Positions 3,883 to 58,608 of a stretch of DNA of 64,000 nt are shown piece after piece. The stretch lies in the NCBI GenBank assembly GCA_026770025.1, contig JAMXDE010000018.1, forward strand, positions 186,001-250,000. The letters run 5' to 3'. Position 1 is the first letter of the stretch; every line of letters starts with the position of its first letter. The notes under the pieces were generated by a model, which was not told the origin of the DNA, searched no databases, and saw only the letters and a program-made list of their open reading frames with translations. The translations under genes and the position numbers were made by a program. Source of the DNA: Craspedostauros australis (taxonomy: Eukaryota > Bacillariophyta > Bacillariophyceae > Mastogloiales > Achnanthaceae).

Positions 3883-3884
3883 TA

Positions 3885-18773: not shown

Positions 18774-19872
18774 GAGGCCTATCGCATTTCACATTCACAC
18801 CCCTGTGCTCATGTCACATGTGGCACTCACGTTCGGATTTCACATTGGTACTCGTGACTAGTTCGTGATCTACTCAGAAAGACGACCAACATGACTGAAT
18901 CGGCTTCTCTTCTGTAGAATAGAGCTCTAGTTTAGACTGCTCTGATATGAATGCTCCTTGCATGTTATCGCATCACTTGTTGAGACCAAAGGTTGATAGG
19001 ATCATTAATGGGTGTGCTCTGAGTTGCACGCAACGCACATCCCTCTTTCTTCTCTTAGGAGCTTCGTGTTCTGAGAGTTTCGCTGCCATCTCTTCTGTCT
19101 CAACTTTGCTACTAACAGAGGTCCGGTAACATATGCGCAAGCACTTTGTCCCTGCTGATTCATAGCTTGTTCAAGGCTCTGTTGCCAATATCGATGACAG
19201 AGACCTCTTGATCACTGTATCATGGAGATGGATCAGCAGTTTGTTGTCCAATAGAAGGTCTCCACGCAGTCTACACAGAACTATTGCGATTGCGCGTTGG
19301 GTTGGTTGGAGACCAACAACGACTTCCGATATGGCAGTCAGGATCTCCAAAAGATGCAAAATGCGCGTTGGTCGAAGTCCCTGGTCGTATCTGACTACAC
19401 TAGTCCTCAGAGCATCAGGAACACGCCGTGGATGTTGTATCGGGTGAACTAGGATATGAGCAAAGATTCCTCAGCTGGATCATGAAGGGGTCCTTTTATA
19501 TTTGCGCGTAGATATCATATGTGAAGCTTACAGGCATATTCGACATCTTAATCGCTCTCTATCGCTCCATGCACCTCTCATTCGGAATGCTAGTTTCATC
19601 ATCACTAGCATCTCAAAAAAATATCATTGTTACGACAAGGACGACTCAACATTTCTGCAAATGAAGAGAAATGATTGGCCATTCGTTTCGTTCCAACACG
19701 TGGAAGGTTGGATTGCCGGGACTGCAATGTGAAACTCAATTGTGTTTTTGGCTCCTAAAACGCAATCGAGTTTCACTTTCCGAGGGGGAAGTTCGCATGT
19801 TGCCCCTCTAAAAATATCATTATCAGGTTATTTTGTACCGTGGGACTCCCAATGTGAAATGCGATAGGCCTC
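18774..19872. mobile_element. TA-flanked inverted-repeat element, copy 2
   Basis: Same 1,099 bp as 2784-3882, same orientation, again flanked by TA (18772-18773 and 19873-19874). It interrupts the upstream part of duplication unit B; the counterpart in unit A (about 8722, GGCGCGATAATTCCGAA) is unoccupied. No transposase inside. Identity to copy 1 appears complete. Confidence 0.9.
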
Positions 19873-20173
19873 TACTCCCGAAGCGTGCGTTTTACAATTG
19901 GCACGAAACCAATGTCAATGACTTTGGCGGGGGTTGTGTGTTGGTAGCGTGATGGGAGAACGGCGCGAGGACAAACAATCAGGCGTGCACGAAGTCTCGG
20001 TGACATCCACATCGCAATAAACATGGCGATTGAGCGTTAGGAACGTTATTACAATTAATGACGATGAGGCACGAAACAATTGTGGCGATCCTGGATCCAG
20101 AAGAAGTGCGCGTGCCGCGTTGCGATTTGGTCCAACAGAAAATTGGATGAAAAGTCTCCACTTCACCTCCCTG

Positions 20174-24016: not shown

Positions 24017-25007
24017 ATGTTGAATGGCGCCTACGCTCATCGGTACTCCATCGGCAGCGTGCAAGACTTTCTTGATCTTGCACGCTACATCCTTCTCACC
24101 CCTGGCCAGTGCATCACCAATCTACGATGCCGATCAAGTGCATTCGGGGAGGACTTTACCGTTGCATTTGGGATTTCGCCTCATCTCTGCTCTGTGCTGT
24201 GGGCACTTGCAGCACGTCGTGGGGACCTGAAGCCAAAGCATCTCCTTTGGGCCCTGTACTACATGCGGCACTACCCATCCGTGCGCATGGCATGCGTCTT
24301 CCTTTGGACCACAGACAAGACTCTCAAGCTCCATATCTGGTCAGCAATCAAGGCTGTAGCAGATTTGAAAAATGATGTGGTAAGTCCAAGGGGAATGCAT
24401 TTCACTCACAATTGCTTCAGCAACAAACAAGCTCACATCTTTTGCACTGCTTGTCTCTCTTCGACGTTGCCATGAAAAGATCCTGTGGGAGAACCGATAC
24501 TCTGGGGATTTGAACAGATCGTGCCTGGTCACGGTTGATGGCACTGATTTCAAGATCAACGAGCCAACCCCATTCGATCGCAAGTGGTATTCGCACAAGT
24601 TCCGATCGGCTGGAATCAGATATGAGATCGCTGTGTCGATCCAAAAGGGAGATATCGTATGGATGAATGGTCCATTTGCTTGTGGGCGGCACCCAGACCT
24701 CAAGATCTTCCGCTCTTTGCTGAAACAGTACTTGGATGATGGTGAGATGGTGGAGGCTGATCGTGGATACCGCGGTGATGAAGCTGTCCGGACATCCGAT
24801 GATTTTGTTACAGAAGCAGAGAAGCAAGCAAAAAGCCAAGCTCGTGCTCGCCATGAGACTGTGAATGGCCGCTTCAAGAATTGGAAGATCCTGGAGCATC
24901 GTTTCCGCCATGACCTGATGTTGCACAAGCATGTGATGAAAGCAATTGTCACTATAACCCAGCTTCAAATCGAACATGGCAACTCTCTATTCCAAGTACA
25001 ATACTAG
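24017..25007 (+). CDS. DDE transposase of the Harbinger-like element (DDE_Tnp_4 type)
   Basis: Exons 24017-24379 and 24480-25007 (100 bp intron, phase 0) give at least 296 residues; the 5' end is not settled, since the same frame is open back to 23951 and further exons may lie upstream. Exon 1 ends with the helical region PKHLLWALYYMRHYPS. Exon 2 has the catalytic residues in VTVDGTDFKI, EADRGYRG and RHETVNGRFK, spaced D-x73-D-x31-E, followed by FRHDLMLHKHVMKAI. The motifs WYSHKFRSAGIRYEI and IVWMNGPFACG are typical of the IS5/Harbinger-type DDE_Tnp_4 family. It would cut and rejoin the element ends in the nucleus. The catalytic part looks intact. Confidence 0.82.
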
Positions 25008-26162: not shown

Positions 26163-26210
26163 ACAGACTCCGACACAAAAAACGTGATTTTCTCTTTTTC
26201 CGACAACTCC
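26163..26210 (-). repeat. Right terminal inverted repeat of the Harbinger-like element
   Basis: Ends TTTTCCGACAACTCC, reverse complement of the left end, with the inner TCCGACA repeat at the matching distance. Confidence 0.88.
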
Positions 26211-26659
26211 CTGTGGTTTCTCTTGCTCACGCTTTTTGGACGCCACACGCGAGAAGAGAATTCGGTGATGACGGACGCGAGGAGAGCTAACCCAAAGTCT
26301 GAAGGTTTGGCGTGGAACAACAACGGAAACTGGTGGATGCCAACCGGAGCCGCCACCGCACTGATGCTGGTGATCTTCTGCGGTCGGCACCTCCGGAGAT
26401 TTGTGCGACACACGAGCCTGGATCCTTCGCAGATGCGTGACATCTGACGCAAACCAACCGACACACGGTCATCTGCAACAAGCACCAAAGGACGTCCACA
26501 CTCACTGGTTTTGTGTGCTCTGGCTGGTGAGGTGCAGACATCATCTTCTGTTGTTGCATCGTCCTCCAACTCGCTCAGAAGTCGTCATAAAATCTTGAGA
26601 CCGCAAGTCGCGACCGCAACTTCACTCGACTCCACTCTGCTCCACATCAAAATCCCACT

Positions 26660-29600
26660 ATGAAGCTGTTCGCCGCATCATCTTTGCTCGCCATGAGCTC
26701 CGCCTGGAGTGCTGCCTTTGTTGCAGCCGAGGTAAGCCACCACCATGTGATGCATGCCGAAACTGCGAACCATGTGGAGGACGATGGTGGTTCCAATGCT
26801 GGAATCAACATGGCACCGCCATGGAATCAACATGGAGTCAACATGGGCCACATGCAAAAGGATGTCCATGATGCGCTGCGATGATCCATCAATCGACGGA
26901 CAGATGACAACAAATGAAGCTCGCACATCAGCAGATCCACCCATCAAACACATCAAATACATCACCAATGCTTCATGCCATGCCATGTCATTTGATGGAG
27001 AATTCCGATGCGCTCGACGTCGATGGCCATTCTCACTCTCTCCTCTTCTCTGTCCCTACGATCTAAAACATGTCTCTCTCACTCTCTCTCGCATTGCCAC
27101 ACTCTCACTGCTAAACCATCACTTCACCGGCAGGAGTACACGCTGCTAGCGCCATGTGTCATCACGCAAAGGCATGTTTCGTACAGGGACCGCGCACCAT
27201 CCCGTGTGGCCAAGTGCAAGCTGCACGGAGTCGACGCCGCAAAGTTCGGAGGAGTCCACCTCAACATCGAGGGATTGACGCCAGAATGGATCGACGAGAA
27301 TGACGTCGTCCCATCCCCCCTGGCCATGCACACCCTCTTCATCGAGGGTGCCGTCATGAACAACGATGACTACACCCTCCGACTGCCGGAAGGCAAGACC
27401 ATCGAGGACATGGCCATCGACATCAACGGCGTTGAGACCAGCAACCGCAGGCTCAGAGATTCCGACACCTCTCGTCAGCTCGAAGACCTGCCCTCGCAAC
27501 TTGCGATGGGCGACAAGACCTTCCTCATCATCCGCGTTCTGACCAACAGCGGCGCGACGAGCGTCCCGCGGCAGGATATCATCGACAACTGCCTGGGCAA
27601 GTCGCCAAACTTCATCCAGCAATTTTCCGACATGTCCTTCGGCAAGCTCACCTTGACGGCGGAAAACACCAACGGATCTTCCGATGGCATTCTGGACATC
27701 ACCATCGCGCGTGCAATCAACGGTGCAAACGGGGACAACATCGAAGCGGATGTCACCACAGCCCTCGCCAACATTGGCATTGACGAAGACACCTTCGATC
27801 ATCTCCTTTACACCTTCCCGTACGGTTCCATGAGCGGCGGCGATGTGGACTGGCTTGGTAAGCCCACCGAGTTTGTCTGTATGCTGTCGTGACGTAGTGT
27901 TTGTTTGTTTCGCTTGGCTTCACTTCACCATTGGTGGCTCGCCTGCGCCATGTGCATTTGACAACACCACGCACACCTTCTCACCCTCGTCACACACCAT
28001 GCTACTATATGCCAACATGTGCGCGCTTTGGTATTGCGCGAATATTCCACTCTCACTGTTCCAATCTCTGCTCCCTTCGACAATATAAATGGGCTTGCTC
28101 CTGTCGCAGCCTACGCAGATACACCGGGTTCCACCGCTGTCTACAACGGCATCAACGACCCCCCTGGCGAGCACTACCTTTACGACATATCCACTGTCGT
28201 CCACGAAACCGGACACAACTACAACCTCGACCACAGTAATGAGGGAGCAGAGGAATATGGTGACACCTCGTAAGTGCTCTGCCTTCCTGCGTCGGCTTCG
28301 TCTTGAACATGGTTGGGTGTGCAATTCATTCACACGTGAGCTCGCCGTGCAATTTTGACATCGGATGGGCGCAACCAAGTCCAGGGATGGATACTCTCTG
28401 CCATTCTGCCTCCCCTATGTGTATGTGCGCACAACCCACAAACCCCATCATGCCACCTCCTCACCGCGCGCTTTGCTCTTCGTCTCGCTCCCCTTCGTCC
28501 TATTCCGTCATGTACTCCTCGAATAACCATCGCGATCAACCATTTTGGGGCATCTTCTTCGCTTTCCAGTGGCGCAATGGGTTTCGGTATCGGCGTACAG
28601 GACAGTTTGGACGAGATCAAAGGCTACAACGGTACGTCGCCTGCCAGAACAAAATGAACAAATGCACGGGTGCTGCTGCCTCCTATAATGTCTGGGAACA
28701 ACTACGTGTCTGGTCTGCTCGCAGGCAACTGTCTTCCTCCCACTTCGCTGATCACTCCTCTCACCCATTCGCAATGCCGTCACCGCGTTGCCCCGAACAT
28801 TCGTTCCTCGTCACTCGTTTCGTGGCAACGGAACCGCCGTGTCTTTTCCATGCTCACACTATTTGAACATCGACGGTCATGCCGACGATCATCACATCAT
28901 TATATCTGCACTGTCGCGTTTTCATCGTGCACTGCAACCAAACAGGAGCCAAGAGCTTCGAGATTGGCTGGTATTCTGACCGAATGCTCGACCTGACTTC
29001 GGCGGGCGATAGCTACGAAGGCGTGATGTGCGGCGTGGTCGACTACAACCCATCCGACACCAGCTACATCGTGGGCCTCAGAATCAGAGATACGGGCAAC
29101 TCGCAGGACTACTACGTCGCTTTCAACAGGGCCTCTGGCTTCAACAAAGACAGCACCGAAGGCAGGAACCAGGTTCTCGTGACGACAGCCCCGGCCTTCA
29201 CTGGCACCACTACACAGTCCGTGTTGCTGTCGAGGCTCGACGCAGGAGGTTCGTTCAGAAACGCCGACCCATCGTCGCTCGGTGGCATCAGCGTGTACGT
29301 GGACAGCATCGACCGTCTCTTCGTCAACGACAGGGTTTGCGCGACCGTCAAGGTCCAGTATGGCGAATTCTCTCCAGCGGCAACATCCGCGCCGAGTGCC
29401 TCCCCAGCGCTAACCAACGCTGCGCAAGCGTGGTATAGCACAACCGTGACAGACACATTCACCAATGTCATCGAATCGTTCCGATTCGACCTGACCATCA
29501 CTGCTGATGTGAGAATCACGGGCATGCGGTTGATCTTGGCCAACCGCTCGCAACAGGCATACTCCATCTATTTCCGGTCCAGCACCTGGAATGCCGATGG

Positions 29601-30582
29601 AACCTGGATGCAGATTGCCTCTGGTAACATCATGCCCGAAGGCCTCGGTCGGTTCACTGACGAGATCACATTCAACGCCCCGATTGAATTGTCCGCCGCT
29701 GACGGTACTGTTGCGTTCCGCATCGACTCGCCAACCAAACTTCTGACTGAGTTTCAAAATACCTTCGCGGCTCATCCAGCCAACGGTTTCAGCTGTCCAA
29801 ACTGCCCATTCAATGTCTTCTACGGACAAGCTGGCGTAGTTGCATCCGATAGCCAGAACAACTCTTTTGATTTTGCCGGATATCCTTTCGTCGGAGCCAT
29901 CTTATTCCAAAACATCGTGATGGTCGCACCTACCAGTGCACCGACCAGCGCTCCTACTTCGGCGCCCACATCGGCCCCGACAAGCAATCCGACGTCTGTC
30001 CCCACATCGGCGCCCACATCCGCACCAACATCGGCCCCGACAAGCAATCCAACGGCGTCGCCTACTGCGCCTGCACCAACCAGCGCACCAACGTCGGCTC
30101 CAACCAGTGCACCGACTTCCTCACCGACGTCGGCGCCCACATCTCAGCCAAATGCCAATCCAACATCGGCGCCGACAAGTGCTCCGACCAGCGCACCGAC
30201 ATCAGCCCCGACCAGCGCACCGACGTCTGCCCCAACATCGGCACCCACCGCTGCGGTTCCAGTACCAACCAGCGCTCCGACATCAGCCCCGACAAGCTCA
30301 CCGACGTCTGCCCCAACATCGGCTCCGACCAGCGCCCCGACTTCCTCACCGACGTCAGCACCGACAGCTCAGCCAAACAACAATCCAACCGCGGCGCCGA
30401 CCAGCGCCCCGACGTGGATGCCAACACGATCCCCGACTTCGTCACCGACATTCGCACCAAGCGAGACCGTGGTGATGAAGAAGACGAAGAGCTTCGTCGA
30501 TCCTGACGAGAAGAAATCGAAGAATAACATGATGACTTCCGACAGCGATACCAAGAAAACCAAGAACATGCTGAGAGTCTAA
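26660..30582 (+). CDS. Secreted M11 (gametolysin-type) zinc metalloprotease with APTS-repeat linker, paralogue B
   Basis: Same five-exon structure as paralogue A: 26660-26731, 27134-27857, 28110-28269, 28570-28631, 28946-30582, giving 884 residues. The signal peptide differs by one residue (MKLFAASSLLAMSS). The zinc site reads VHETGHNYNLDHS, keeping all three His and the Glu, and the Met-turn region reads SGAMGFG, so it should be active, but nine of 53 residues encoded by exon 3 differ from paralogue A. Exon 5, encoding the C-terminal beta-rich region, APTS repeats and tail, is nearly identical to A (one substitution and one lost Asp codon seen). Different active-site surroundings on the same outer part suggest different substrates or inhibitors, which is inference. 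Confidence 0.87.
29926..30459 (+). repeat. 12-bp minisatellite encoding Ala-Pro-Thr-Ser repeats, copy B
   Basis: Same array as at 12725-13258, same number and order of variant units as far as I can compare, which is unusual for a minisatellite in separate copies. Confidence 0.92.
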
Positions 30583-31974
30583 CCGGCTCGCGGACGCATG
30601 TGCTTGTGCCACATTCGTTTACATGTACGTGGATGTCCAAGTACGTGAATGCTTGCATGGTGCATCGTGCCACCTGCAATCCCGTACCCACACCCTCAGA
30701 TCGAGTCTGTCAATGCCACAAGTGCGGCGAGAGACCTCAATGCTTGGACATGCAGGTACCAGCAATGTACCAATAAGGCCATCAATACTTAGGATGCCAT
30801 GTTCACATATTTGTCCATGTTGTTGAATCGTACAGTAGAATATGATATATGATATGTCGAACGAATGTGTAGAAGAGAGAGAGAGAGAGAGAACAGTTAT
30901 CGATGAGTGCCAACCGAATGCTGCGAACGACAAGAGGCGCAATGTGACCACAACGACCACCGTCCGTTCCCCAACCACAAAAGAGCCACGAAGATCCAAG
31001 CATGCGGCAGCGAGCAGAGGCGAGGCAGAGCACAAGATGGTGCAACAGAGCGTGAGATGACACCGCACATCAATGTGTTCATCCACGTCCGGCGTGAATG
31101 AGAGAGACAGGAGAGTAACCCAATCATTGAAGAGCCACGATCCTGGCTGCGAGGTTGTCATCGTCGGAAGCATCACCGCAGCATCAACCAAGGCACGACG
31201 CCCATGTACGTACCATGGTGCTTCTTTTGAAGTCCGTCCATGATGTCCGCTCGTCGCACAGTGCTGTTCCATCTCTCTCCGGACAAGAATCCGTCACGTA
31301 GATCGCGCCCCAAAGGCATCGCCGAAAGGAAGCTGATCTCGCAGTCACCATGGTGGCCTCGGATGGTTGCTCGTTCGGGTTCGACAGTGCGCAGATCTTC
31401 AGCAAGGGGATGGCACTCTCTCGAGCGTTTCGCTTCAACGCATCCGGAGCCAGCAAGGACATCTGCCTCGAAACAATGGTCGGCTGCATCAAGCACAGGA
31501 CTGCGGCCTGTCAACAATGAGATGGACACGGAGATACATGTAGCATCGAACAAATACCCAAGCCAATCTGAAGAAAGGCCTGTTCATGTTATTGATGGCG
31601 CGACAAATGGCATGAAATCGGAATGGCCTGGCGATGTCTTGGAATGCCGATTGCCCGGCGCGAGATGGGAGAGGATGATACGAGCTACGGCTATTTCGAG
31701 TAAGTATCATGGCGTCACTCCTACCATGAACATCAATGCATCCTCACTAGCGATTGCTCTCGCCGGAACTTGGTTGCCACAGACACGATGTTGGCGCGCC
31801 TGTGGCCTATCTCCCTGGTTGTGAATGGCCGGGCTCCTGCGCAATTCAGGCCTGGCCGATAAAGGCCGATAAAGGCCGGAAACATTGCTACACCAACCAA
31901 ACAACCAACCCTAGTGAGAAGCCTGTGCCACAAAGTAGACCATGATGCCCACGATCCATTACGATCTCCGAGTC
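30583..31974. other. Downstream flank of unit B, no supported gene
   Basis: Counterpart of 13385-14935. A 194-codon plus-strand frame at 31240-31824 is only partly open in unit A, so I do not call it. A 126-codon minus-strand frame (31173-31553) is open in both units. Confidence 0.4.
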
Positions 31975-31994: not shown

Positions 31995-32148
31995 GAGTGA
32001 GTGAGTCGACCAACCTTTGGTAAAGTAGAGTGGCAATTTTTCTTCGATTACAACAGAACTAATCATACCAACCTACTCATTATAGTGTCTATAGCAACAG
32101 GAAAATTACCCAGAATCTTAAAGTTTATAGTTTAAGTTTTGTGGACCA
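31995..32148 (+). repeat. Left terminal inverted repeat of the DDE element
   Basis: Starts GAGTGAGTGAGTCGACCAAC and ends near TTTTGTGGACC. Matches the reverse complement of 36378-36530 and the right end of the truncated copy (18375-18530). Confidence 0.87.
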
Positions 32149-32650
32149 TCAAATATTTAGAGTCGTATGGGTCAAACGCAGCCTTCCACGATGTAGTTTC
32201 ATCGAAGGTTCTTTGGTGTTCCGAGTTAATAACGGAAGGTGTCCATTCACGTTTGTGTCTCCAGCTTTTTCCTTCCTCCTCGTTCGTTTGGAACACGTTA
32301 AACAACGTTAGCTGCTGCGGAATCGATTGACATTTTGTGCTTGTCAGCATCACACACATCATCACCACATGCGCACGCACACATCGTCGCCACGCAGACA
32401 CAAAACCCCGTCACATTTTTTGCTTCATTCCAAAGGTGCCTCCGCCGATGCGATGCTCATTGTATCTGTTGTGCTGCGGTTGTAGTATGAGTAGCGAGAG
32501 TACTAGTGACATTGGCGGTTGTTGTTCTCGGTGCTGCATCCAACACCTCTATCGGCATCACCTCCTCCACCCACTTTCATTCAGCGTTCTACAGTGCCAT
32601 TCATCGATCAATCAATCAATCAATCAACCTCCTTTGCTACCATCAACACC

Positions 32651-35600
32651 ATGTCCTCCATCCCTGCCAAAGCAACAATCAAGGGCGAAAACCCATCTCC
32701 TCGTAAGAAGCCTCGTTCCTGTGCTGCCCCTCTCGATTCTCCTTTTGATTCGGATGGCAACTTGGCACCTACTCGTGAGCAGCTGTTGCCTGACAAGCTG
32801 TCTACTGGATTGCGGAAGCCCACCGACATCACTCACGCAATCGAGGTCAATGCTTCCAGTGGACAGCAACCTTGTTCCAACTTTGGCGCATGTCGATGCC
32901 GCTAACCTGCGCGTTGACGTGCGCCTGTCCAGTGCGGCTGGTGTCATCTTTGATACACTAACGGTCACACTGCGTACAGTTGGACAAGGTGTCGGTGCTA
33001 TCACAGTGGTAGACATCAGTGTGAACGTGCCACCTCCCGTTGAGTCTCCTGCCAAACCAACTACCCGCGCAAGCACTGCACGACACGCAAACGCTGTCGC
33101 TGGAGGCGCTTTCGAGCAAGTTGATGTTGACAGTGATGACGACTACGTGGACGGCCGTGATCGCAGGAAGAAGCAAACAGGCCGCAACAGACTCATCCAG
33201 AAAACGGTGAGAGGATGGCGTCGCGATGCGTTGGTCCGCGTTGCAGGGTTGGTTAAGTCTGGGCTGCCTCCAAAAGTGTTCAACTCCATGCCGAAGACGG
33301 GATTCACACTTGGTGGAAAACACGATCGGCAAGTCTGGTGCAACATCAAACGGCTGTGGGCGCCAATTGCTTCTGCGCTCTGGGATGTGTTGCTCCCAAA
33401 AGAAGCGACACCAACTGGCCAGATGCATGAGGTGGTGCAATTTTTTCGGGCAGGGCAAGCACTGCCACCACTGATGCTTGCACCAAATTTGTACCGCATA
33501 TGTGTTGGAGGGAGCAAACTGATGCACCTCTGCGCGAGAGCCGTTCTCGCAGAGTCTGCCTCTCCAAAAGCATGCACAGATATTCTCACTGGGTACGCCA
33601 ATGGATTGCCGGAGGAAGAACGCGTGCATGTACATAGCAATCGACAAACCATCACTAAAAGCCAACAGAAGACATTGCAGCGCTACTACGACATGTTGAG
33701 TGATGGGGAGACCATTCCGCCCAAAATTCTCCAATACCGTGTGACTGCGTGTGCTTTGTCTGGTGTGGTGTCGTTTCTCTGCACTACAACCACGTACAAG
33801 GCTGGCTTGTGCCACGCAGTGGAGTGGGAAGGAGTCGTATTCGAGAAAGTTCCGGTCTTTGATCGTGGAGGCAAAAGCATCAAGGCGCTATTCGACATGT
33901 ACAAGACTACCACCACCAACCCAGTAGGCGAACCAGCATTCAAAGAGATGACGAAGCTACTAACACGACGTGGCAAAGTGAACACAGGGCTGTCTTCCTT
34001 CGAAAGCCACTTTTTGTTGGCAATGCTAACTCTCAAACGCACGATCTCGCGCCTCGTCACACTTTTGAAGGCTAAGTATCCCACAACAAACGGCGCTGAG
34101 GACGAGAATGACGTGATTTCCCGGCATCTGCGCACAGCGGAGTCTCTGTTGTACTCATTGGAGCTTCTTGTTGTCTTCGTCAAATGGGAATTCACTGCCT
34201 CTCACATGCAGATGGAGTGTGATGACCCAATGCACTCAGCTCAATTTGCGCTCATGCCCAACCAGAAGAAGACAACGACAAAACAATCCCAATCAACCAG
34301 AACGCGTACCAACAAGCACAAGCTCAGGAAGAAGATCACTCAAACCAATGACATTGCTTCTGCCACCAACGACACTCCAACCATCACAATTGATATTCCT
34401 GACATCACTTGTGTGACACATGCTGCTGCCAATGACACCACCACTGACAATAATGAACAGCCTTGCGCCACCACAGACAAACAACACACTGGAGTATGTA
34501 ACCGTTGTGCAGGGGTGATGCGTTTTGTGGACGGCCGATATGTCCCTTTCGTGACATCGCTTATGGAAGATCACCTTGCGGAACATGCGACAGAATTGGA
34601 GTCGATGCTCAATGCCGCACCAGGGTTCAACAACGAAATACTGTGGTACATGGCACACAAAGTGCGCAGCAAGGTTCAATTTGGACAAATTGAGCAGTAC
34701 CTCCGAAGTATCAACAACCGAGAGGATCGCGCACATGTGGTGCTGGACCACAAACAGAAAATTCTTCCGACTGGCCAAGGCGAAGCTCAACAAGAATACT
34801 GGGGCAAGAAGGGCATGTCTCTGTTGGGTGCGATGGTGATCACATGTCACAATGACACACTCACTTATCGCTTCATTGATATCATTGTGAAGGGGAGGCC
34901 AACTCAAGACACCCTCCAAGTTGGCAGGCTTCTCAAAATTGTGCAACAACAGGTGAGAAAAATTCTTCCATTGGTCACCGAAATTGTCATCCAATCCGAT
35001 AACGCGTCTTGTTTCGCGAGCCACGAGCACATCCCGCTGATCACATCAGTGCTGAACAAGAACCTTGGAACGCGAAATGTCCCCAAGATTGCGGCCTGGA
35101 TCTACACCGAAGCGCAAACAGGTAAAGGTCGCCTTGACACGCACTTTGCGTACATCACCGTTGTGTTGCGAGCCTACGTGCTGGAGGACAATGACATCAA
35201 GACGGAACACCAACTTTTCGATGCATTGGAAGCTGGCAACATTGCAGGAACAACCACAGTTTTGGTGGATGCAGAATGCCTTGAGGGGCGTGTCCTGAGT
35301 TTCCCCGGCATGCCAAAGAAGCGTGTCTGCGCGAAAGGGCAAAAGGTACGCCAAACGCACGAGGTCAAGTTCGGAGACGATGAGGCCAATTTGGTGGTGG
35401 CATCTGGTGTCACAGATGACATACTTGTCCCATGTGTGGAGTGGGAGGGATGGGAAATCAACCGGCTGGGTGTCCGCACGATCGCAACGCACACGTCAGG
35501 AAAGGAACCGTTCACCGCCGAATCGCCAAAGAAGAAGAAGAAGAAGGCGCGAAAGTGGGGTGCTACCGCGGTGGAGAGCAAGGCGCTCGTGTTTCGCGAT

Positions 35601-43331: not shown

Positions 43332-44656
43332 TCAAGGCGCCCTCAGGAACTGATTGATGAGGATGCGGAACTGATCATCCACATCGACAATGCAGAACTC
43401 ATCCTCGCACTCCATGGCGACCTCGCGCTCGAGCGCCACAATGTCCGCGTCGCTCATGCCGGAACCCTGGTCGAGTCTGCGGTCTTTCTCCTTATCCTTT
43501 TCCTTCTTATCTTCCTTGTCCTTGTTTCCTCCATTGTTGTTGCCACCGTTGTTGTTGTTCGTCGGTGGTTGCTGCGGCGGCGGCTGCGTTGGGTCCGACC
43601 CGGTCGACGCAACCGCTTCGCCATCCTTCGGCAGCGTCTTGGGATCGACTGCCAAAGGTTTGGCGGGCGTTCCGTACAGCTGGACCAGCAGATCCAAGTT
43701 GAATCTCCCAGGTACCTGGTTGTTGCGCGTGCGGATGGTGTAATCCATGCAGTCGCCGCGATCACGATTGAAGTGGTCCTCATCGGTGTGCGGGAGCCCA
43801 AAGCCTGTATGGATGATGACGGTAGTGGCGGCGGGTAGAGTAAAGCAGAGTAGCATAATTCGTTTGTGATAATTGTGTGGGCAAGAGCACGTGAGCCACG
43901 AAAGAAATTGGAATGATATCATGGTTCATGCACACATATACTCTATGCGCAAGCACAATCACAATCACAATCATTTTCTTGTCTGCAAACTCTCAGTGAC
44001 GTACCGTGTCCGTTCTCGTGGCACATGAGGTAGGTGCGATCGGCGTCATCATCCATGAACCTGTCATTGAGCTGCGATGTGGAGTGCACGATGGTGCCTT
44101 CGAACTTGTCGATGAGGATGATGTTGATCCCATGCCACGGCGTATCGCCGTAGTCGCTGTTGCAGACCTTGAGACGGCCGTTGCGCGGGGAGCACTGCGG
44201 ATCGACGGAAACCCGGGACGTCTTGAGGTTGAGAGCATCCGTCTCGTTCCATGCCTTGATGGAGGCCTCGAAGAATGGGTTCCAGTCGTCGGTGCAGGCA
44301 TTCTCCACCATGAGGGTCAATCCGGCAGTGGCATCCCATCGGTTGGCCTCGCTCTTGCCAGGAGGGTCCACGGGGACGAAGTAGCTGACAGGATTTGCGC
44401 GGCCTGTCAGGATGAGCGACAGTCCAACGATGACGCCGATCCCAATGAAGATGAAGAAGGCGATGCACTTGATGCGTGAGCAGAAGGTGGCCGGTGGCTC
44501 TTCGATCTGCTTGGCCTGCTGTTCCTTGGCGGCAGCCGCGGTGCCGTTGACTGGGGAGGGGGTGGCACGAGGGACGTATGCATGCTCGACTCCTTCCTCC
44601 ATGTCGCTTTCGCTGGTGTCGGACATGGTGTTCTTGATGACGATGTTGGGACTCAT
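43332..44656 (-). CDS. Type II membrane metzincin-like zinc protease
   Basis: Two exons, 44005-44656 and 43332-43804, with a 200 bp GT..AG intron, give 374 residues. The cytoplasmic N-terminus is acidic and Pro/Ala-rich; one membrane span lies near residues 62-85 (IKCIAFFIFIGIGVIVGLSLIL); the rest would be outside. The zinc site is CHENGHGFGLPHTDE, HExxHGxGxxH as in metzincins, and a downstream CMDYT may supply the Met-turn. The intron falls inside this motif, between the second His and the following Gly. Two upstream Cys-containing loops (ENACTDDW, DPQCSPRN, KVCNSDYG) suggest disulphides. The tail is Asn/Gly/Lys-rich then acidic. No close family recalled; unrelated in sequence to the M11 pair beyond the zinc motif. 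An alternative start is the Met of MSDTSESDME. Confidence 0.8.
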
Positions 44657-48136: not shown

Positions 48137-48724
48137 ATGAGAGTCCTTTCTCTTGCAACCGCCGCCCTCTCGGTGGCCTCCAGCCTCGCCTTCACCATCA
48201 AGGCCGGCGACAAGCTCCCAGCCGCCAGCCTCCACTCCGGCTTCCCTCCTGAGTTCGTCAAGATCGACGAGTACGCCGCCGACAAGAACATGATCATCGT
48301 CGGCCTCCCAGGAGCCTTCACCCCAACCTGATCTGCAATCCAGGTTCCAGGCTACCTTGAGAATCAAGACGCTCTCAAGGAGGCTGGAGTCGACGAGGTC
48401 CTCGTTTACTGCGTGAACGACGGAGCCGTCATGAAGGCTTGGGCCGCCGACCAGATCGGCGACGCCACCTACGCTGACAACATCGTCAAGTTCATGGGTG
48501 ACCCAGCCGCCGAGTTCACCAAGGAACTCGGCATGGAGATGACCCACCCAGGCCCACCCTCCGTCGGCATCATCGGACGCTCCAAGCGCTTCGCCATCCA
48601 CGTCGTCAACGGCGAGGTCAAGTACGTCGCCGTCTCCGAGTCCGAGGACGACCCAGCCGGTGACTCCGACCCAACCGACACCCTCCACGATGCCATGCTC
48701 GAGGCCATCAAGGCTGAAGCCTAG
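48137..48724 (+). CDS. Prx5-type peroxiredoxin with UGA at the peroxidatic position (probable selenoprotein)
   Basis: A single frame of 195 residues if UGA codon 65 (48329-48331) is read through. Both sides are clearly peroxiredoxin 5-like: upstream VGLPGAFTPT, downstream SAIQVPGYLENQDALKEAG, then VLVYCVNDGAVMKAWA and HPGPPSVGIIGRSKRF. In the family the motif is PGAFTPTCS, so UGA replaces exactly the peroxidatic Cys, as expected for selenocysteine. It would reduce peroxides using thiols. The N-terminus MRVLSLATAALSVASSLAF is a signal peptide ending in an Ala-Phe step, with the mature domain starting at once, so import through the plastid-surrounding ER, perhaps stopping outside the plastid stroma, is inferred. 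No intron can remove the UGA. I did not find a canonical SECIS by eye; a disabled gene or base error remains possible. Confidence 0.82.
48329..48331 (+). other. In-frame UGA, candidate selenocysteine codon (Sec65)
   Basis: TGA between ACC (Thr64) and TCT (Ser66). The frame stays open and conserved for 130 codons after it. Confidence 0.75.
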
Positions 48725-49598
48725 AGCTCCATTGGACCCCCTTTCCGGTGGGCACAGACATGCGCTGTCCTCAGCGCAGACATGGAGTCCCGTCGCACGT
48801 CCCAGGAGTTGGCATCCAAGGGGACTGCTTGCCATTCGGCATGTCCCGTCCCTGAGGAGACCTGGATGCTGTAGCTTCGCATTCCTCCCATCACGTCCCC
48901 TTCCCTCCAACACTTCCCTCTTCCCACACCTGTTAGGTATGAATGACGTTTGGTATGCATCGAGCTCGATTTCAAATTCTCCTTTGAATCTCTGATCGAG
49001 CCGTGCAAACCAGACTGAAGAACCACACCGTCTTTGCAGCTTTAGATACTGCGTCTTGGTATCTTGCAAAGACACACCACCAACAGGCACCTGGAATGGG
49101 AGATGGTCGGAAAGGCGACTCTGGCATAGGAATGCGATCAGCAACACGTTTGGGTTGCAGCATCCGCAGACCAATCTCGCTCATATCCGTTGCCGACATT
49201 GATCCACAGCTTCATTCATTTCCGAGTAGAGTGATGGAATGCATATGGTAACGATAACACAACATAGTTCACGAGAGTTGGTAGATTTGCGATCAAGACC
49301 AGAGCATGCTGTGGTGTTGTGTACAATAGTTGTTTGACAACCACATTCGAGTGGATGGATGTCTGATGCTCACACCAACATCAACTTGTCATGATTGCAT
49401 GACGTCTCAGTGCAAGTTCGATGACACAAGATGGTTCGACTCCAATCACCAACACCACCTCACACCTTGAGAGAAACAGCGTGCCGTCCATTACCTGCAC
49501 GATTAGCAGCACACTCGCACATCAACAAAGAAGTCTCTGGAGCAACACGTCGAGTATTCCAGCACTCAACACAAGACAATGCACTGCCGCAATCAAGA
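48725..49598. other. 3' region of the peroxiredoxin gene and convergent spacer
   Basis: No gene supported. Strong hairpins occur: GCGCTG/CAGCGC near 48763-48778, and an imperfect long one at 49030-49073 (9-bp outer stem GTCTTTGCA/TGCAAAGAC, 6-bp inner stem AGATAC/GTATCT, 9-nt loop). Neither shows the UGA/GA quartet of a canonical SECIS. The next gene is convergent. Confidence 0.5.
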
Positions 49599-50975
49599 TC
49601 AAATGCATAACTCTGTAATTACCATCATGACGGCACCCAGGACAGTTCCAAGACCGATGGACCACATCGTCTTCGCCGCATCCTTCCATTGCCCCATCCC
49701 ATGCCTCCAGGCCTCCGGATACAGCTCCACGAAGGCCACCGATATCATGATGCCCGCCACCGACGCCAGTATGCACTCCATCGACAGAAAGGCCGACGTC
49801 TGCATGCGCTTGCCGCTCGGCAGCACGCACAGCGCCAGGAAGGCACCCAGCGGTTCCGCCAATCCCGATCCGCTCGCCAGCAGGAAGGCCAGCCACGGCG
49901 AGTCGGGGCGCGCGGCCACGCACGGTACCGCGATCGCGATACCCTCGGGGATGTTGTGAATCAGGATGCCCACCGCCACGGTGATGCCGAGATGGCGCGA
50001 CTCCATTGTGCTGGCGGCCACGGCGAGGCCCTCGGGGAAGTTGTGGCATAAAAGCGAAACGAACAGGAGCATCGCGACGCGCCAGGATCGTTTGGCCTCG
50101 TCGGATTGGAGGTCCGCGCCGGAGGACCATTGGAAGACGGCGTGCGTGGATTTGGAGTGTTTCTGTTTTTGATTGGAATAGCTGCCCGCGCTCTTGTCGT
50201 CTTCGGAACGGCCGCACGGCGATTTGGGGGATTTGGGTGACCGCCTTTGACGTGCTTGGGCAGCATCCTTCTTGCGCGTTGCTGAGAATGCCTCCGCGCC
50301 GTCGCCATCGTCGCTGCTGAATGTGCTGGATCGGCGTGGCTGGAATTTGTCATTTGTAGTGGAAGTGTTGGATGATGGATGGGAACCGAATCCATCGGAA
50401 TCCGCTGGTCCCATGAGCTTTTGCATCTCGTAGTTCTCCTCCGTGAGCACATCTCGAGGTGATTTGCTGATTGCATGGCTGCTGTGTCCACCGATGCCGC
50501 CACCGCCACCGTGGGCATGATGACCGCCCTCACCACCGCCTTCGAGCACCAGATCCGTCGGTTCAGGAAATGCCAGCTTGGACAGGAGGATGTAACTGAT
50601 GCAACCACCAAAGAACCAGCAGAGCCTCGCGAAGAGCAGGTACATCGGCGTGAACGATGAGTCTTCCTCGTCCTCGTCGGCTGCAGCCTCATCCATCGTC
50701 CAGGCGATGCCGTTGAGGCATTCTGGCCCGATGCTGATGACGGAGACCGTGATCATGACGGATCCGGCCAACGCAAGGGAGAACGTCATGGTGTCGCGGA
50801 TGACCTCGGCGGAGAAGCAGAAGACCACGGCTGCGCCCACGCAGGTGGATGCACCCGCCAGGGTTGACAGCAGCAGCGGGAACTTCCATGCGGCGCCTTC
50901 ATCGTTGTCATCGAATATCTGCAGCATGGTGATGGGCTGCGCTGTGTTGTGTTGTGCTGAGTTGTTGTCACTCAA
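49599..50975 (-). CDS. ZIP-family divalent metal transporter
   Basis: 458 residues. About three hydrophobic segments lie in the N-terminal half, then a long soluble loop (about residues 135-300) with a Gly/His-rich stretch (GGGEGGHHAHGGGG) and Ser/Arg-rich sequence, then about five segments. The metal-binding signature is present twice as in ZIP proteins: LLCHNFPEGLAVAAS in TM4 and GILIHNIPEGIAIAVP in TM5. This arrangement fits the ZupT/ZIP11-like branch, which brings zinc or other divalent ions into the cytosol. The His-rich loop may sense metal. A later Met (MLQIFDDND, residue 17) is an alternative start. The gene is divergent from the prenyltransferase gene, 478 bp away. Confidence 0.92.
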   Translation of the reverse strand: MSDNNSAQHNTAQPITMLQIFDDNDEGAAWKFPLLLSTLAGASTCVGAAVVFCFSAEVIRDTMTFSLALAGSVMITVSVISIGPECLNGIAWTMDEAAADEDEEDSSFTPMYLLFARLCWFFGGCISYILLSKLAFPEPTDLVLEGGGEGGHHAHGGGGGIGGHSSHAISKSPRDVLTEENYEMQKLMGPADSDGFGSHPSSNTSTTNDKFQPRRSSTFSSDDGDGAEAFSATRKKDAAQARQRRSPKSPKSPCGRSEDDKSAGSYSNQKQKHSKSTHAVFQWSSGADLQSDEAKRSWRVAMLLFVSLLCHNFPEGLAVAASTMESRHLGITVAVGILIHNIPEGIAIAVPCVAARPDSPWLAFLLASGSGLAEPLGAFLALCVLPSGKRMQTSAFLSMECILASVAGIMISVAFVELYPEAWRHGMGQWKDAAKTMWSIGLGTVLGAVMMVITELCI

Positions 50976-53038: not shown

Positions 53039-56000
53039 TTAAAGCGTCTGCGAGGTGACGGGGAACTGCTGGAACATGGTATTCTCCCAATTCTCAGCCC
53101 AATGCTCCAGTCCCAGCGTGCGGTACAGCTCAATGACCTGCCGCGAAACTTCCTTGCGTTTCTTGGAACTCGCTGGCATGTCCTTTAACGCCTTGCGCAG
53201 ACCAGCCAGTGCGGCGGCTGGCTTGCCCTTGGCAATGTCGAGCTGCGCCGAAAGCAACGCGTATCCTTCCTTCTCTTCGTCGCCCGACAGATCGCTGGCG
53301 CCGCTGACCCATACCTTGCATTCCTTCATGGCGGTCACGAACTTTTCGTTGGCAGCCTCGACGTCTGCATCAGCGCTGCCCTCAGTGCTCTTCAGCTTCA
53401 TGAACGCCTTGCCCAGCGCGCTGGCCTTTTTGTACAGAGCTGAACGCAGCGTCTTGCGCTGATCGTCCATCTCCTTCTTGAGCTCCTTCGCCTTCTTCGT
53501 CTCTTCGCTGTCCTCCTCCTCATCTTCATCGATGGCGCTGCTGTTGCAGCCAAAGTACTGCGCCAGCTTGGCGGTGTCAATAGGACCGCCCTCTGCCGTC
53601 AAGGCATCCACGACCGTCGCGATCTCACCAGCTCGCCACGCATCTTCATCTTCCACATCTTCTGGTTTCTTGGCAGACTTTGCATACTCCAGCAATTCCT
53701 TCCTCAAACTCAGATCGTTTGGCTTCTCCTCCTTCAACGCGTCAGAGAGCTTGGCGTACGCCTCCGATTTGGAACGCAGCGTCTTGAGATGCTTCAGCTT
53801 GGCCTCGAAGATCGCCTTCTCCAATGCTTCCGCATCCTTCGCTTCGTCATCTTCATCCTTCTTGCTCTCAGACGACGACGATGATGATGATGATGATGAT
53901 GACTTGTCGTCAGACTTCTTGGCTGGTTTCGGTGGCAATTCGTAAATTAACGACATGCCTGACAGTGCGTTGTCCTTGTCGACGTAGAATGTTCCGGTCA
54001 TGACGTCGCCAGGTTGGATCCAGGTTGGCATCTTGCCCGTTGGGCGTGACACGTACAGACTTTTGTAGGTGCCCCGTTTCATGGTGCGCTTGCCGACCGC
54101 CTTGCGAGGGATGATGCCCTTGTCTTGCTTTGCGGTGACGGCAGGCGTCGATGCCGCATCAAATTCAGAGTACACGCTGCAGTCCAGCGCGTTGCTCCCC
54201 TTCAAGTCGAACATGAGACGCATCGGAATGTCCTTCAAAGCATCGAGCACCGCGCGTTCTGGATGACGCAGCAACAGGTTCAGCGAATACTTGCCCTTCT
54301 TGAGCGTGACGGCGGATGAGTCGTGCATGGCCCCGCCGTACTGGAGGATCTGCCCGTTGCAGTCCTTGAGTGCCCATAGCTGCGAGTCGATCGGGCTGTC
54401 GTAAAGCTGAAAGAAGAGGGACGCCAATCGTGGCGTGACGGACATGTCGTTTGCATCCAACTCGAATTCGTAATCCAAATGGGCTTGGTGAATGAGCGTG
54501 CCCACCGGTGGTTCATCGGCAGGAGCAGCGCGGACCTCGGCATCCGATGGCAGCAACACGTCGCGATCTGGAAGTGCGGTGGATATGGTGCACTTCTTCG
54601 GTCGGATGGTGCGATGGACGCTCTTCAAGGTGGCCTTCGGATTGATCATCTCTGTTCGCAGCGGCGCGCCAACCTCGGTACGTGCGAATTCCGTGGAGGA
54701 TCCAATACGAAGCGCGTGCGTGGCAAACATCGGTGCAGCCTTGAAGTTGTAGGAATGAAATTCCAGGGTCGTGTCCAGCTCGACCGGTTCTGGGTTGGAC
54801 AGCCATGAGAGCTGGATGCAAACCTCCAGAGTCGCTCCGCCTCGTGCCCTCAGCTTGACCTCGAGCGGATTTCCCATATCGTCTTCTCTCACCGTGAGGT
54901 ATCGCTTGGACTGGACCATGTCATGGTGCACGTCTGTGCTCGTGAATGGAATGGTGTGAACGATGATGCGATGAGGTCCCTTGTTGAGTTTGGATGACTT
55001 GGGTTTGCGGATTTTGAGAATGGCATATTCGACACCCTGCGGGACTGTGATGAAACGCCGTTCGGGGATGCCTGGCTTGAGCAAGAAAGGCATCGTCAAG
55101 TCAAATTCATTCTCCGTGGGTTCCACCACGCCCGGCGTTCCCGTGGTGGCATCCATGTTGTGCGGCACGATGACGGTGACTGGCACAGAGAACAGAGCGC
55201 CGCGGGCCGGATCCTTGGTTTCGATGGCCTGCACCTTGGCGTAATGCACGCCAGGAGACAACTTGGTGGGATCGATGCGAACGGCGAATGATTGCCCGCG
55301 TTCCCGTCCCGACAGCAAGGTCATGTGATCGGGACACGACACCCAATCCACGGCATCACCAATGTACGACTGCACCTTGAATTCCATGTCGAGCTCGAGA
55401 TTGACGATTTCATCCACCTCCTCTTCGGTGCGTTGCATGGCATGCTGAAATCGTGGCGTGACGCGCACATCAAAGGTCATTGGTCCATGCTGCAGCTCGG
55501 GGGCGTTGCGGATGTAAATTCCACGCGCCGTGTTGCTGTTGCCGCGGGATAATACGGCGACCTCGAAGTTGGTGTCCTGGCCTTGCTTGCCATGGTGCTG
55601 GAGGATGTAATCGACGGCATCGACCGCGGAGATCAAGCCCATGCCCTGCCCGAACGGCTCGGCGACATCAACTGGCTTGGCGGTGTTGAGGAGCGCACGC
55701 TTGAGTTCGTTTGGATTGACAATGATCTCTCCATCGCCGCCAGCGGCCTTGAGCTTTTGGAAGACGGCAGAAAGGACGCATGCTGCAACGCCGCAGGCGT
55801 TGGGAGACGACATGCTCGTGCCATGCTTCTGCGCCTTGCCTTGCAATGTGTGGCGTGGAATAGGCGCGATGGCGCCACCCGGAGCGCAGATGTCAGGAAA
55901 AGCACCATCCGGTGTTGGACCGCGCGACGTGAAGCTGTAGGATGTTTCTCGCAGCCCGATCGCTTCGTCGGGCTTGTCGGCGTCGTCTCCCAAAGGCAAG

Positions 56001-57715
56001 GTGGAGTACTGCTCCCTCATCATGGGTGGGGAGACGTAGGCACCGACGGTGATGGGCGCCGTGATGCCTCCTGGCGATCCCACGGTGGACAAGGCCGGTC
56101 CATTGTTGCCAGCGGATGTGAAGACAGTCATACCCCACTTGTAGACGGCATCCGCGAAAGTCTGCGCGACGCGTCCGTGTCCATTGTCAGGCTGCCAGGA
56201 TGGTTCACCGTAGGAGAGGTTGACGAGGTGGCAGTTGTACTTCTTGGCGGTGATGAGACCGCGCACCAGCGCCGTTCCAGTCTCCGTGGTGTCTACACGG
56301 CCGTCGCCAATCTTGAGCCCCACCAGCTGCGCGCCAGGAGCGACGCCGTTCTTTGGATTTGGTACCGGTGCCGTTGCGTCGCCATCCGTGGACGCGGCTG
56401 CTGCATTGGGATCATCAAAGTTTGCAGCCGCGATGCCCGCGACGTGCGTGCCGTGGGAACCACCGTCCGTGACGATGCTGAGGAGCTTGCCATCCTCGAA
56501 GAATTGGAAGCAGTAGGTGACGGCGGATCCGAAGCCCAAGGTGCCCATCTGGCGATCGACGGCGAAGGCCGCCATGGCGGGAGTGCCGGTGAGATCGCCG
56601 TCGGCATTGAGATCCAGCACGGCCCTCCACACGCCGCTGGCGTCCTTGAAGGAGATGACGTCCATGAGCGGCCCCGCATCGTCGTAGTCCTCCATGCTGG
56701 CCGTGAGCTGCTCCAGCAAGGTCTTGGCGTCGTTGAGCTGCAGCTTGGACGCGTCCTTCCCCTTGGCGGCTTCCTCGAGCGTCTTGATCTGGTCCTGCAC
56801 GCTGCAGGTGGAGGTGTGGTGCAGGGTCTGGAAGTAGGTCTTGCGCTCCGTGCGCACGCGCCTCGCCACGGTGCCCGGGATGATGTCGAAGAGACGCACG
56901 GCGCCCAGGTGAAGCTCGGTGGCGGATTCCGGCAGCCAGTCCGGGCTGAGCTTGAGGGTGCGTCCCGAGAGTCCCTTGACTGTGGGCGGCCCCGCAGCGT
57001 CCTCGGGACGCGTGATGTTGGCGGTCTTGGCCATGTCGACATCGCCGTCGCCGCTGCAGTCCAAGAAGTCTATGTACTTCGGCTGTCCCGTGGACGCGAT
57101 CTGCAGACCGGCAGCCGCCAGGTCGCAGCCGGAGTCCATGATGCCGATGACGATGCCGCGGCCATCGGCCTCCGGGCTCTTGCTCCAGAGATCCAGGATG
57201 CCCGTCTCGGCCTTGGGCAGGGTGCTGTCGATGGCGCCTGCGGCTGTTGCTGCGGCAGGGGACATGGCAGGGGGCATGGCAGGGGACATGGTGGAGAGGA
57301 AGTTGCTGCTGCCTGTACTGCTGCTGCTGCTGCTGATGCCGTGGGAGTTCTGACCAGGAAAGAGGCCGCGGCTGAGAGTGCGAGTCTGCTTTTGGGGATG
57401 GATGGCAAAGGCGAAGGCGAAGGGAGGCCTTGAGGTTGCTGATGCAGTGGCGGCGCCGTTGCGAGCAGAAGCAGCAGCAGAAGAAAGCGAGGTGATGGAG
57501 CGCCTGCACACGAAGGATGAGACGAAGAGGGGAAGCAGCGGCAGGTAGCGTCTCAATGGAAAGGCTGCGCTGTGTCTGTGTCTGCGTCTGCGGATGCTAG
57601 TGCTACTACTGGTGCTACTACTGAGGCTACCACTGAGACTACCACTGAGGCTACTACTGAGGCTTGATATCGTTCGTGTCCTTGTGCTTGAGTTGATGGC
57701 AGCGATCAAGGACAT
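53039..57715 (-). CDS. TPP2: Tripeptidyl-peptidase II (subtilase S8)
   Basis: No introns; 1,558 residues from the Met of MSLIAAINSS. The catalytic triad is visible: Asp in GIVIGIMDSGCD, His in DGGSHGTHVAGI, Ser in KHGTSMSSPNACG; the oxyanion Asn is in TSAGNNGPAL. A long insert between Asp and His and a ~700-residue C-terminal part are diagnostic of TPP II, a giant cytosolic peptidase that trims tripeptides from proteasome products. The core is 1,416 residues if started at MSPAMPP (57289), versus about 1,250 in animals and 1,380 in plants. The Ser/Arg-rich segment before it (YLPLLPLFVSSFVCRRS) could be a targeting sequence, or not translated. The frame is open further, to 58108, but that part looks non-coding. 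A Ser/Asp/Lys-rich acidic linker lies about 350 residues from the C-terminus. Confidence 0.95.
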   Translation of the reverse strand: MSLIAAINSSTRTRTISSLSSSLSGSLSGSLSSSTSSSTSIRRRRHRHSAAFPLRRYLPLLPLFVSSFVCRRSITSLSSAAASARNGAATASATSRPPFAFAFAIHPQKQTRTLSRGLFPGQNSHGISSSSSSTGSSNFLSTMSPAMPPAMSPAAATAAGAIDSTLPKAETGILDLWSKSPEADGRGIVIGIMDSGCDLAAAGLQIASTGQPKYIDFLDCSGDGDVDMAKTANITRPEDAAGPPTVKGLSGRTLKLSPDWLPESATELHLGAVRLFDIIPGTVARRVRTERKTYFQTLHHTSTCSVQDQIKTLEEAAKGKDASKLQLNDAKTLLEQLTASMEDYDDAGPLMDVISFKDASGVWRAVLDLNADGDLTGTPAMAAFAVDRQMGTLGFGSAVTYCFQFFEDGKLLSIVTDGGSHGTHVAGIAAANFDDPNAAAASTDGDATAPVPNPKNGVAPGAQLVGLKIGDGRVDTTETGTALVRGLITAKKYNCHLVNLSYGEPSWQPDNGHGRVAQTFADAVYKWGMTVFTSAGNNGPALSTVGSPGGITAPITVGAYVSPPMMREQYSTLPLGDDADKPDEAIGLRETSYSFTSRGPTPDGAFPDICAPGGAIAPIPRHTLQGKAQKHGTSMSSPNACGVAACVLSAVFQKLKAAGGDGEIIVNPNELKRALLNTAKPVDVAEPFGQGMGLISAVDAVDYILQHHGKQGQDTNFEVAVLSRGNSNTARGIYIRNAPELQHGPMTFDVRVTPRFQHAMQRTEEEVDEIVNLELDMEFKVQSYIGDAVDWVSCPDHMTLLSGRERGQSFAVRIDPTKLSPGVHYAKVQAIETKDPARGALFSVPVTVIVPHNMDATTGTPGVVEPTENEFDLTMPFLLKPGIPERRFITVPQGVEYAILKIRKPKSSKLNKGPHRIIVHTIPFTSTDVHHDMVQSKRYLTVREDDMGNPLEVKLRARGGATLEVCIQLSWLSNPEPVELDTTLEFHSYNFKAAPMFATHALRIGSSTEFARTEVGAPLRTEMINPKATLKSVHRTIRPKKCTISTALPDRDVLLPSDAEVRAAPADEPPVGTLIHQAHLDYEFELDANDMSVTPRLASLFFQLYDSPIDSQLWALKDCNGQILQYGGAMHDSSAVTLKKGKYSLNLLLRHPERAVLDALKDIPMRLMFDLKGSNALDCSVYSEFDAASTPAVTAKQDKGIIPRKAVGKRTMKRGTYKSLYVSRPTGKMPTWIQPGDVMTGTFYVDKDNALSGMSLIYELPPKPAKKSDDKSSSSSSSSSSSESKKDEDDEAKDAEALEKAIFEAKLKHLKTLRSKSEAYAKLSDALKEEKPNDLSLRKELLEYAKSAKKPEDVEDEDAWRAGEIATVVDALTAEGGPIDTAKLAQYFGCNSSAIDEDEEEDSEETKKAKELKKEMDDQRKTLRSALYKKASALGKAFMKLKSTEGSADADVEAANEKFVTAMKECKVWVSGASDLSGDEEKEGYALLSAQLDIAKGKPAAALAGLRKALKDMPASSKKRKEVSRQVIELYRTLGLEHWAENWENTMFQQFPVTSQTL

Positions 57716-58608
57716 TCTGCACTTGCTGCGGCGCTGTGGTTGTGTCAGCACCCGCTGTCGGTATCGAAGCAAGCTTTGGTTGTGGTTGCGCCGTTGTGTC
57801 TTGGTTGGAACCTGCAGGTGCGGTCGTGCTCCCAGGAGCGCAGTTGAGGTGAGCGTTGCGTGTGTCTCTACCAATGGCTCGCGCACGCTCCGCAGCAGCC
57901 GACGACCTACTCTTCTCTCTCCATTGTCGCTGATGCCAATCCACGTCCCATCACCACCGAACATCACCCAAAACGCGACGCGGATCCTGATTTTTCGGCC
58001 ATTGGCGAAGATTGTGGAAGGTTCTGCCGGTGACGTCAAACGGGATCCCTGTCCACTCGTGTGCCAAACTTCTTCTTCCTCCCGAAATGGAAGAGCTCTC
58101 GATACCATCCACGATTACGAGTATCAGGAGAGCAGCTGATGTGTGCAGCGCACTCGAATGGTCCTCGACGTGGATCGCAGCGTTCGCACTTGTAGCTTGT
58201 GTAATATTATGCTATACTTTAGTATTTAGTACGTGCAGTAGCTTATTTGACTGGTGATTTGCAGGCTCTCCATGGTTGGTCTGGAATCAACCTTGCGCTC
58301 CATGCATCCGTCCAGTTGTTTTTTCATTTAGTTTGCTTGCTTGGTTGCTTCGTTGATCGGTTGGTTGGTTGTTCATTTCAAGCCTCTTTCATCCATTCAT
58401 CCATTGATTCCTTCTTCTTTCTTTCATTGGTTCCCCTGTCCACGTACCATGATTGTGTGCATTGCAGCGCATAGCACCATGCATGCTGTTGCTTGAGTAT
58501 GTATGTACGTATGGTACGAGCATGGCGCAAGCAGCTCGCCCCCCTTGCTCAATCCATTGCCTGACTGCGCGGTCCATTTCATCCCATTCCATCCCATCCC
58601 ATCCCATC
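57716..58608. other. Upstream region of TPP II
   Basis: About 890 bp. Long plus and minus frames overlap here only because the upstream sequence happens to be open. Contains CATTCCATCCC-type repetition at 58579-58610 and a TACGAGTAT near 58116. Confidence 0.45.

Follow-up and report, generated by a model that had tools for sequence, protein, structure and literature searches.

A Prx5-type peroxiredoxin of the diatom Craspedostauros australis very probably uses selenocysteine as its catalytic residue

Peroxiredoxins containing selenocysteine (Sec) are already known in diatoms and other algae. Two peroxiredoxins are among the 16 selenoproteins of Thalassiosira pseudonana (Lobanov 2007, PMC2375036), Jiang 2020 (PMC7539508) counts PRX as one of the most widespread algal Sec families, and Prx is among the abbreviations of the selenoprotein figure for Aureococcus (PMC5917014), according to the accessible portions of these papers. 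The gene described here, Prx1, is a well-supported further example. The accessible portions of PMC2375036 and PMC7539508 bear out the earlier note on this DNA where it stated that algal selenoproteomes include peroxiredoxins, and weaken its suggestion that a lineage member of this kind merits description, two Sec peroxiredoxins having been reported in T. pseudonana in 2007. Within the same portions, those proteins and ours are alike in being algal (diatom) peroxiredoxins whose Sec is predicted from an in-frame TGA and a SECIS element; the likeness is one of Sec peroxiredoxin class, the Prx5 type not being stated there. What differs here is that three paralogs occur in one genome and that the SECIS candidate lacks an AA/CC element. 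Among the open-access texts (supplements aside) listed by searches on Sec peroxiredoxins and diatom selenoproteins, none is devoted to a diatom Sec-Prx5, and no such protein is named in the accessible portions of PMC9925728, PMC6627142, PMC5139114, PMC6254913, PMC3237563 and PMC10215577. The more original parts of this work are the SECIS variant and a set of homologs hidden behind an apparent Trp.

The window, by which we mean the whole 64,000-nucleotide stretch analysed (C16, positions 186001-250000), belongs to a 74.8-Mb assembly of 90 contigs, and the searches for paralogs and Sec machinery covered that genome. Its plastid-type EF-Tu (tufA) shows 90-95% identity to the rows listed for it (at least 120), whose one named organism is the diatom Asterionellopsis; this sets the genome loosely near diatom plastids. 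The features of the locus, in window coordinates, are these:

48137..48724, + strand: Prx1 CDS, Prx5-type peroxiredoxin, single exon, 195 residues if TGA is decoded as Sec, ending in TAG
48137..48190, + strand: hydrophobic secretory-type presequence as judged from the sequence, codons 1-18, ending SSLA, followed by F19
48329..48331, + strand: TGA codon 65, predicted Sec at the peroxidatic position, PGAFTPT-U-S
48410..48412, + strand: Cys92, possible resolving residue and the sole Cys of Prx1 besides position 65
48943..49018, + strand: SECIS candidate of the Prx1 3' region, starting after 218 nt of that region

The frame opens with ATG at 48137 and closes after 195 codons with TAG at 48722-48724; the only in-frame stop before its end is the TGA of codon 65 (context ACC-CCA-ACC-TGA-TCT), which replaces the peroxidatic Cys of PGAFTPT-C-S. 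With TGA read as a residue, Pfam Redoxin matches residues 22-171 (5.7e-23) and so spans both sides of codon 65; our rereading of the frame agrees with the earlier description of one Prx5 frame with TGA alone at codon 65, at the peroxidatic Cys. Prx1 is matched by 27 distinct solved sequences, mostly named peroxiredoxins, and Cys aligns with residue 65 in all three chains with printed alignments (3uma, 4f82, 1tp9). The gene thus combines an in-frame UGA aligned with the redox Cys of its homologs, the mark of a selenoprotein, with the domain, PxxxT(xx)C motif and conserved Arg of the Prx5 (Redoxin) type. We are highly confident that it encodes a selenoprotein, a Prx5-type peroxiredoxin with Sec as the catalytic (peroxidatic) residue.

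The window also holds large repeats: 9000-14458 and 26205-31593 form a direct pair whose pieces are 92-97% identical, 15984-18526 and 31997-34571 form an inverted pair (91-92% identity), and a pair of 1103 bases lies at 2782-3884 and 18772-19874 with 100% identity. Other genes in the window include:

24510-25007, + strand: DDE_Tnp_4 transposase frame
49599-50975, - strand: ZIP zinc transporter, downstream of Prx1
53039-58108, - strand: tripeptidyl peptidase II, downstream of Prx1

The genome encodes most of the machinery for Sec insertion. The tRNA-Sec lies at C19:1132677-1132762 (76.6 bits, above the cut-off; called tRNA-SeC with anticodon TCA by ARAGORN), SepSecS has two matches on C4, both above the cut-off, and SPS2, also above it, is on C19 and carries its own TGA within LKG-U-ACKIP. 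The eEFSec gene, C2:164390-165433, came up in the selB family search with a score under the cut-off; Pfam euk_SelB_III and the best match among solved structures, eEFSec 7zjw/5izk (5.7e-97), confirm its identity. Of the Sec machinery, whose absence the earlier note had named as counting against a selenoprotein, most is thus present. PSTK is represented by a single weak profile match, with 24.9 bits where the cut-off is 382.35. Further genes carry TGA at Sec sites: two GPx genes (C1:449596 and C7:1388466; a third, on C11, has no TGA), SelT at C47:142927, and two SelU-like genes at C38:387796-388134 (L030) and C1:1476648-1476983 (L031), whose TGA falls within RRPG-U-xLCRE. Because this TGA precedes the matched stretch, no stop had been counted in the SelU genes by the family search. 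With SPS2, Prx1 and the two paralogs described below (Prx2 and Prx3), the TGA-bearing genes number nine in total. The names SelT, SelU and SPS2 rest on a Pfam or NCBIfam match together with Sec motifs which we take to be those of these families.

The SECIS candidate of Prx1 has the core (A)ATGAC at 48942-48947, a stem starting from 48948/49015 with 12 bp in its first part, a long apical stem, and a 3' TGAA with its GA at 49017-49018; that is, an NTGA...GA quartet closes a long-stemmed hairpin 3' of the stop codon. We also searched with a descriptor ([AG]TGA, N, a stem of at least 9 bp, N, then GA, the inner part folding into a hairpin of 45-85 nt). On the sense strand, within 1.2 kb after the stop, it gave one match each in six of the nine selenoprotein genes (Prx1 -30.8, Prx2 -29.0, Prx3 -32.5, SelT -33.3, SPS2 -28.8 and SelUa -22.8 kcal/mol); on the antisense strand it matched none of the nine, and there were no matches in the 1.5 kb after the match to a Cys-encoding paralog, counted from the end of the match, not of the gene. 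SelUa was first matched as a background locus and only later seen to carry TGA in RRPG-U-SLC. GPxA, GPxB and SelUb had no match with the 9-bp descriptor; once the helix was relaxed to 5 bp and the loop allowed to be longer, each of these three showed an AATGAC match, which is not counted.

Five of the six descriptor elements start AATGAC, and that of Prx3 starts GATGAC. The longer string GAATGAC, which the Prx1 element has, is present in six of the first seven selenoprotein 3' regions, against 0.11 per kb in the background, and in both SelU regions seen later, a total of 8/9; since the string first drew attention in those earlier regions, the held-out test consists of the two SelU regions alone. 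As for the descriptor's background, both strands of the 64-kb window gave 17 matches including Prx1, three of them at -25 or below (ATGA 44118 at -34.6, Prx1, and ATGA 27830 at -25.9), so that the Prx1 hairpin is second by energy, and it is the sole AATGAC match there. Another 24 loci, partly overlapping and amounting to 160 kb (both strands), gave 12 matches, one at -25 or below, and at least two of the 12 fall in the SelUa locus. When the descriptor was ungapped and tolerated no more than one mismatch and two G-U pairs, Prx1 was the only one of eight matches below -25; with the G-U limit lifted, two of 16 matches are below it, Prx1 being one. The hairpin at 44118-44209 (+ strand), SECIS-like with GATGAT...GGAA and -34.6 kcal/mol, outscores that of Prx1 by energy alone.

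The Prx1 hairpin departs from the SECISearch rule, which asks for an unpaired AA (or CC) 10-13 nt after the quartet (PMC2375036, accessible portion): it has no AA/CC at that distance. A strict scan, which required one hairpin with AA/CC at a distance of 9-14 nt from the quartet, found no candidates in the 1.5 kb after each of Prx1-3, where shuffled sequences gave 0.18-0.28 on average. Rfam SECIS_1 found nothing with cmscan in the 64-kb window or in seven selenoprotein loci, and nothing in a genome search in which 133 of 967 first-look candidates were scored; because it misses the SPS2 and SelT elements too, its silence on Prx1 says little. The helices outside the quartet are weak in Prx1 (-4.5), Prx2 (-7.0), Prx3 (-5.2) and SelT (-1.1) and strong in SPS2 (-21.1). 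The SECIS check that the earlier note had proposed thus yielded a candidate hairpin in the 3' region, without the apical AA/CC and without an Rfam match. Those two gaps leave some room, though we think it unlikely, for Prx1 being a selenoprotein served by a different SECIS, for example farther downstream or in a spliced 3' UTR. Against this, 48943-49018 is the sole sense-strand descriptor match in the first 1.2 kb, and AATGAC...TGA[AC] or CGAA is common to the elements of Prx1, SelT, SPS2, SelUa and Prx2. The Sec reading of Prx1 does not depend on this hairpin alone.

Prx2 (C1:2136079-2136636) and Prx3 (C27:375092-376121, in two pieces) are Prx5 genes with TGA at the codon aligned with that of Prx1, and a fourth Prx5 gene (C10:1567597-1567869, the Cys-paralog) has TGC, in PGAFTPGC. 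Prx2 and Prx3 share 51-57% identity with Prx1 in the matched pieces. TGA aligns with TGA in all three pairs among Prx1-3; before the site 28/63, 26/64 and 31/65 residues are identical, and after it 69, 74 and 70 of 126 (55-59% amino acid identity), with third codon positions differing most. Since two paralogs in the same genome align TGA to it and the frame beyond is conserved, the Prx1 TGA is not due to chance.

Homologs elsewhere extend this picture. We listed the best 120 of 1659 and scored the residue aligned with position 65: W occurs in 87, C in 21, D in 3, S in 2, E in 2 and A in 1; 2 are gapped at the site and 2 start just after it. Gene callers print W for TGA under genetic code 4, and going by the protein letters rather than DNA we infer that W at this site stands for TGA; this is supported because Prx2 and Prx3, whose DNA reads TGA, sit in groups of W rows (plus one gapped row) with SH-aLRT 99. 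Named Prx homologs among the best 120 include those of Corethron, Eucampia, Cylindrotheca and Nitzschia. One of them, P0010, a transcriptome-predicted protein of the diatom Corethron hystrix (taxid 216773), has D at the site within ELSPPPDP, which by hand reasoning is a +1-frame reading of G-A-F-T-P-T-TGA-S, so that the D requires TGA. Scans with alignment A1 found at least 552 viral-contig and at least 588 bacterial relatives, and TGC or TGT occupies the site in 80/80 kept from each; a first viral-contig scan with a single protein as query had found no relative. The comparison of related genes at this codon that the earlier note called for has therefore been read from DNA in the paralogs and the 160 kept relatives, and from protein letters in the database homologs.

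In a quick tree of 128 rows, with W and D counted as Sec and five bacterial Cys rows as outgroup, Sec and Cys require at least 10 changes, and Prx1, Prx2 and Prx3 fall in separate starred groups. A small clade (P0031, P0068, P0069, P0075, P0121) carries Ser, Glu or Ala where the peroxidatic residue belongs and represents either frame-corrected gene calls or a subfamily in which the catalytic residue has been lost.

Could Prx1 instead be a decayed gene, or contain a sequencing error, with TGA falling by chance on the catalytic codon? The presence of one stop codon where many family members have Cys might suggest so, as might the 12-row group of Prx1 itself, in which nine rows are Cys forms (and two start after the site). 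We consider this very improbable: two diverged paralogs have TGA at the identical codon, the Prx1 frame has no other stop or frameshift, the frame 3' of TGA is conserved among Prx1-3, and the genome has both Sec machinery and further genes whose Sec sites read TGA. One codon struck three times with the rest spared is not what decay would be expected to produce, in line with the earlier argument that a decayed gene would not be expected to hit this codon alone. Hardly credible, too, is that TGA is an ordinary stop yielding a 64-residue product, or that leaky suppression or an altered code makes it another residue such as Trp or Cys; the W printed by gene calls in 87 of the best 120 of 1659 homologs would fit it, but the 64-residue piece would be without the catalytic residue, no TGA occurs in the frames matched for SepSecS and eEFSec, TGA stands at a redox Sec site in 9/9 TGA-bearing genes inspected, and Cys is the main alternative at the site on the tree. 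Trp at the peroxidatic position is expected to inactivate a peroxiredoxin. Among the 27 selB-family matches one, an EF-Tu-like piece at C4:2459859, shows TGA. Selenocysteine is by far the best explanation of the Prx1 TGA, and the earlier proposal of a probable selenoprotein is now backed by the paralog TGAs, the Sec machinery, the other genes with TGA at Sec sites and the SECIS candidate.

We infer the recoding of UGA 65, the peroxidase activity, the reductant and the compartment. In the mechanism we propose, the 3' UTR hairpin 48943-49018 of the mRNA would be bound by a SECIS-binding protein, which would recruit eEFSec with Sec-tRNA-Sec, so that UGA 65 would be decoded as Sec in place of a stop. 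The Sec65 selenolate would then attack hydrogen or organic peroxides, giving a selenenic acid to be reduced by glutathione/glutaredoxin or thioredoxin, possibly via Cys92. Pro58, Thr62 and Arg148, presumably the Prx active-site residues, are present in 118, 116 and 120, respectively, of the best 120 of 1659 homologs. With plant type II and animal Prx5 proteins (1tp9, 1oc3, 3uma, 4f82) Prx1 shares the PGAFTPT-CP-S motif (in the alignments of 3uma, 4f82 and 1tp9), and it differs from them in having Sec in place of CP. An AlphaFold model with Cys at position 65, built with 27 sequences, has a mean pLDDT of 84 and a pTM of 0.82, although the block 61-70, which includes the active site, averages only 62.

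The position of Cys92 is Cys in 97 of the best 120 of 1659 homologs and Ser in Prx3. Prx1 has no resolving Cys at the place known for atypical 2-Cys Prx5 proteins, and Cys92 is not aligned with the second Cys of plant 1tp9 but lies two residues beyond it. One homolog, P0046, has W (probably TGA) at the peroxidatic site and joins glutaredoxin to Redoxin in a single fused protein, as HI0572 (1nm3, matched by Prx1) is, we presume, a glutaredoxin-Prx5 hybrid; Prx1 itself, unlike these, is unfused. The P0046 fusion suggests, by analogy, glutathione/glutaredoxin as the reductant of Prx1.

The presequences of the three paralogs end differently, SSLAF in Prx1, VNA in Prx2 and RSFAS in Prx3. The ER-type presequence of the earlier note is a fair reading of the Prx1 sequence, but its SSLAF end resembles what we take to be the diatom ASAFAP plastid-import motif, making it a candidate plastid or periplastid import signal. 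By their letters, the Prx2 presequence appears secretory-like and that of Prx3 mitochondrion-like.

We suggest, as a proposal that could equally well prove right or wrong, that diatoms possess an old, multi-clade Sec-Prx5 family whose paralogs have different presequences (secretory or plastid-like in Prx1, secretory-like in Prx2, mitochondrion-like in Prx3), with repeated Sec/Cys exchange, a lineage-specific class of SECIS that starts GAATGAC and is able to dispense with the apical AA/CC, and members hidden as 'Trp' in public metagenome proteins. A Sec-containing Prx1 would tie diatom peroxide defence to selenium supply, and its SECIS candidate would give a testable signature for a lineage in which the Rfam model fails. 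Many database peroxiredoxins with an active-site Trp may likewise be selenoproteins, which would be a systematic misannotation with consequences for any survey of antioxidant enzymes in the sea.
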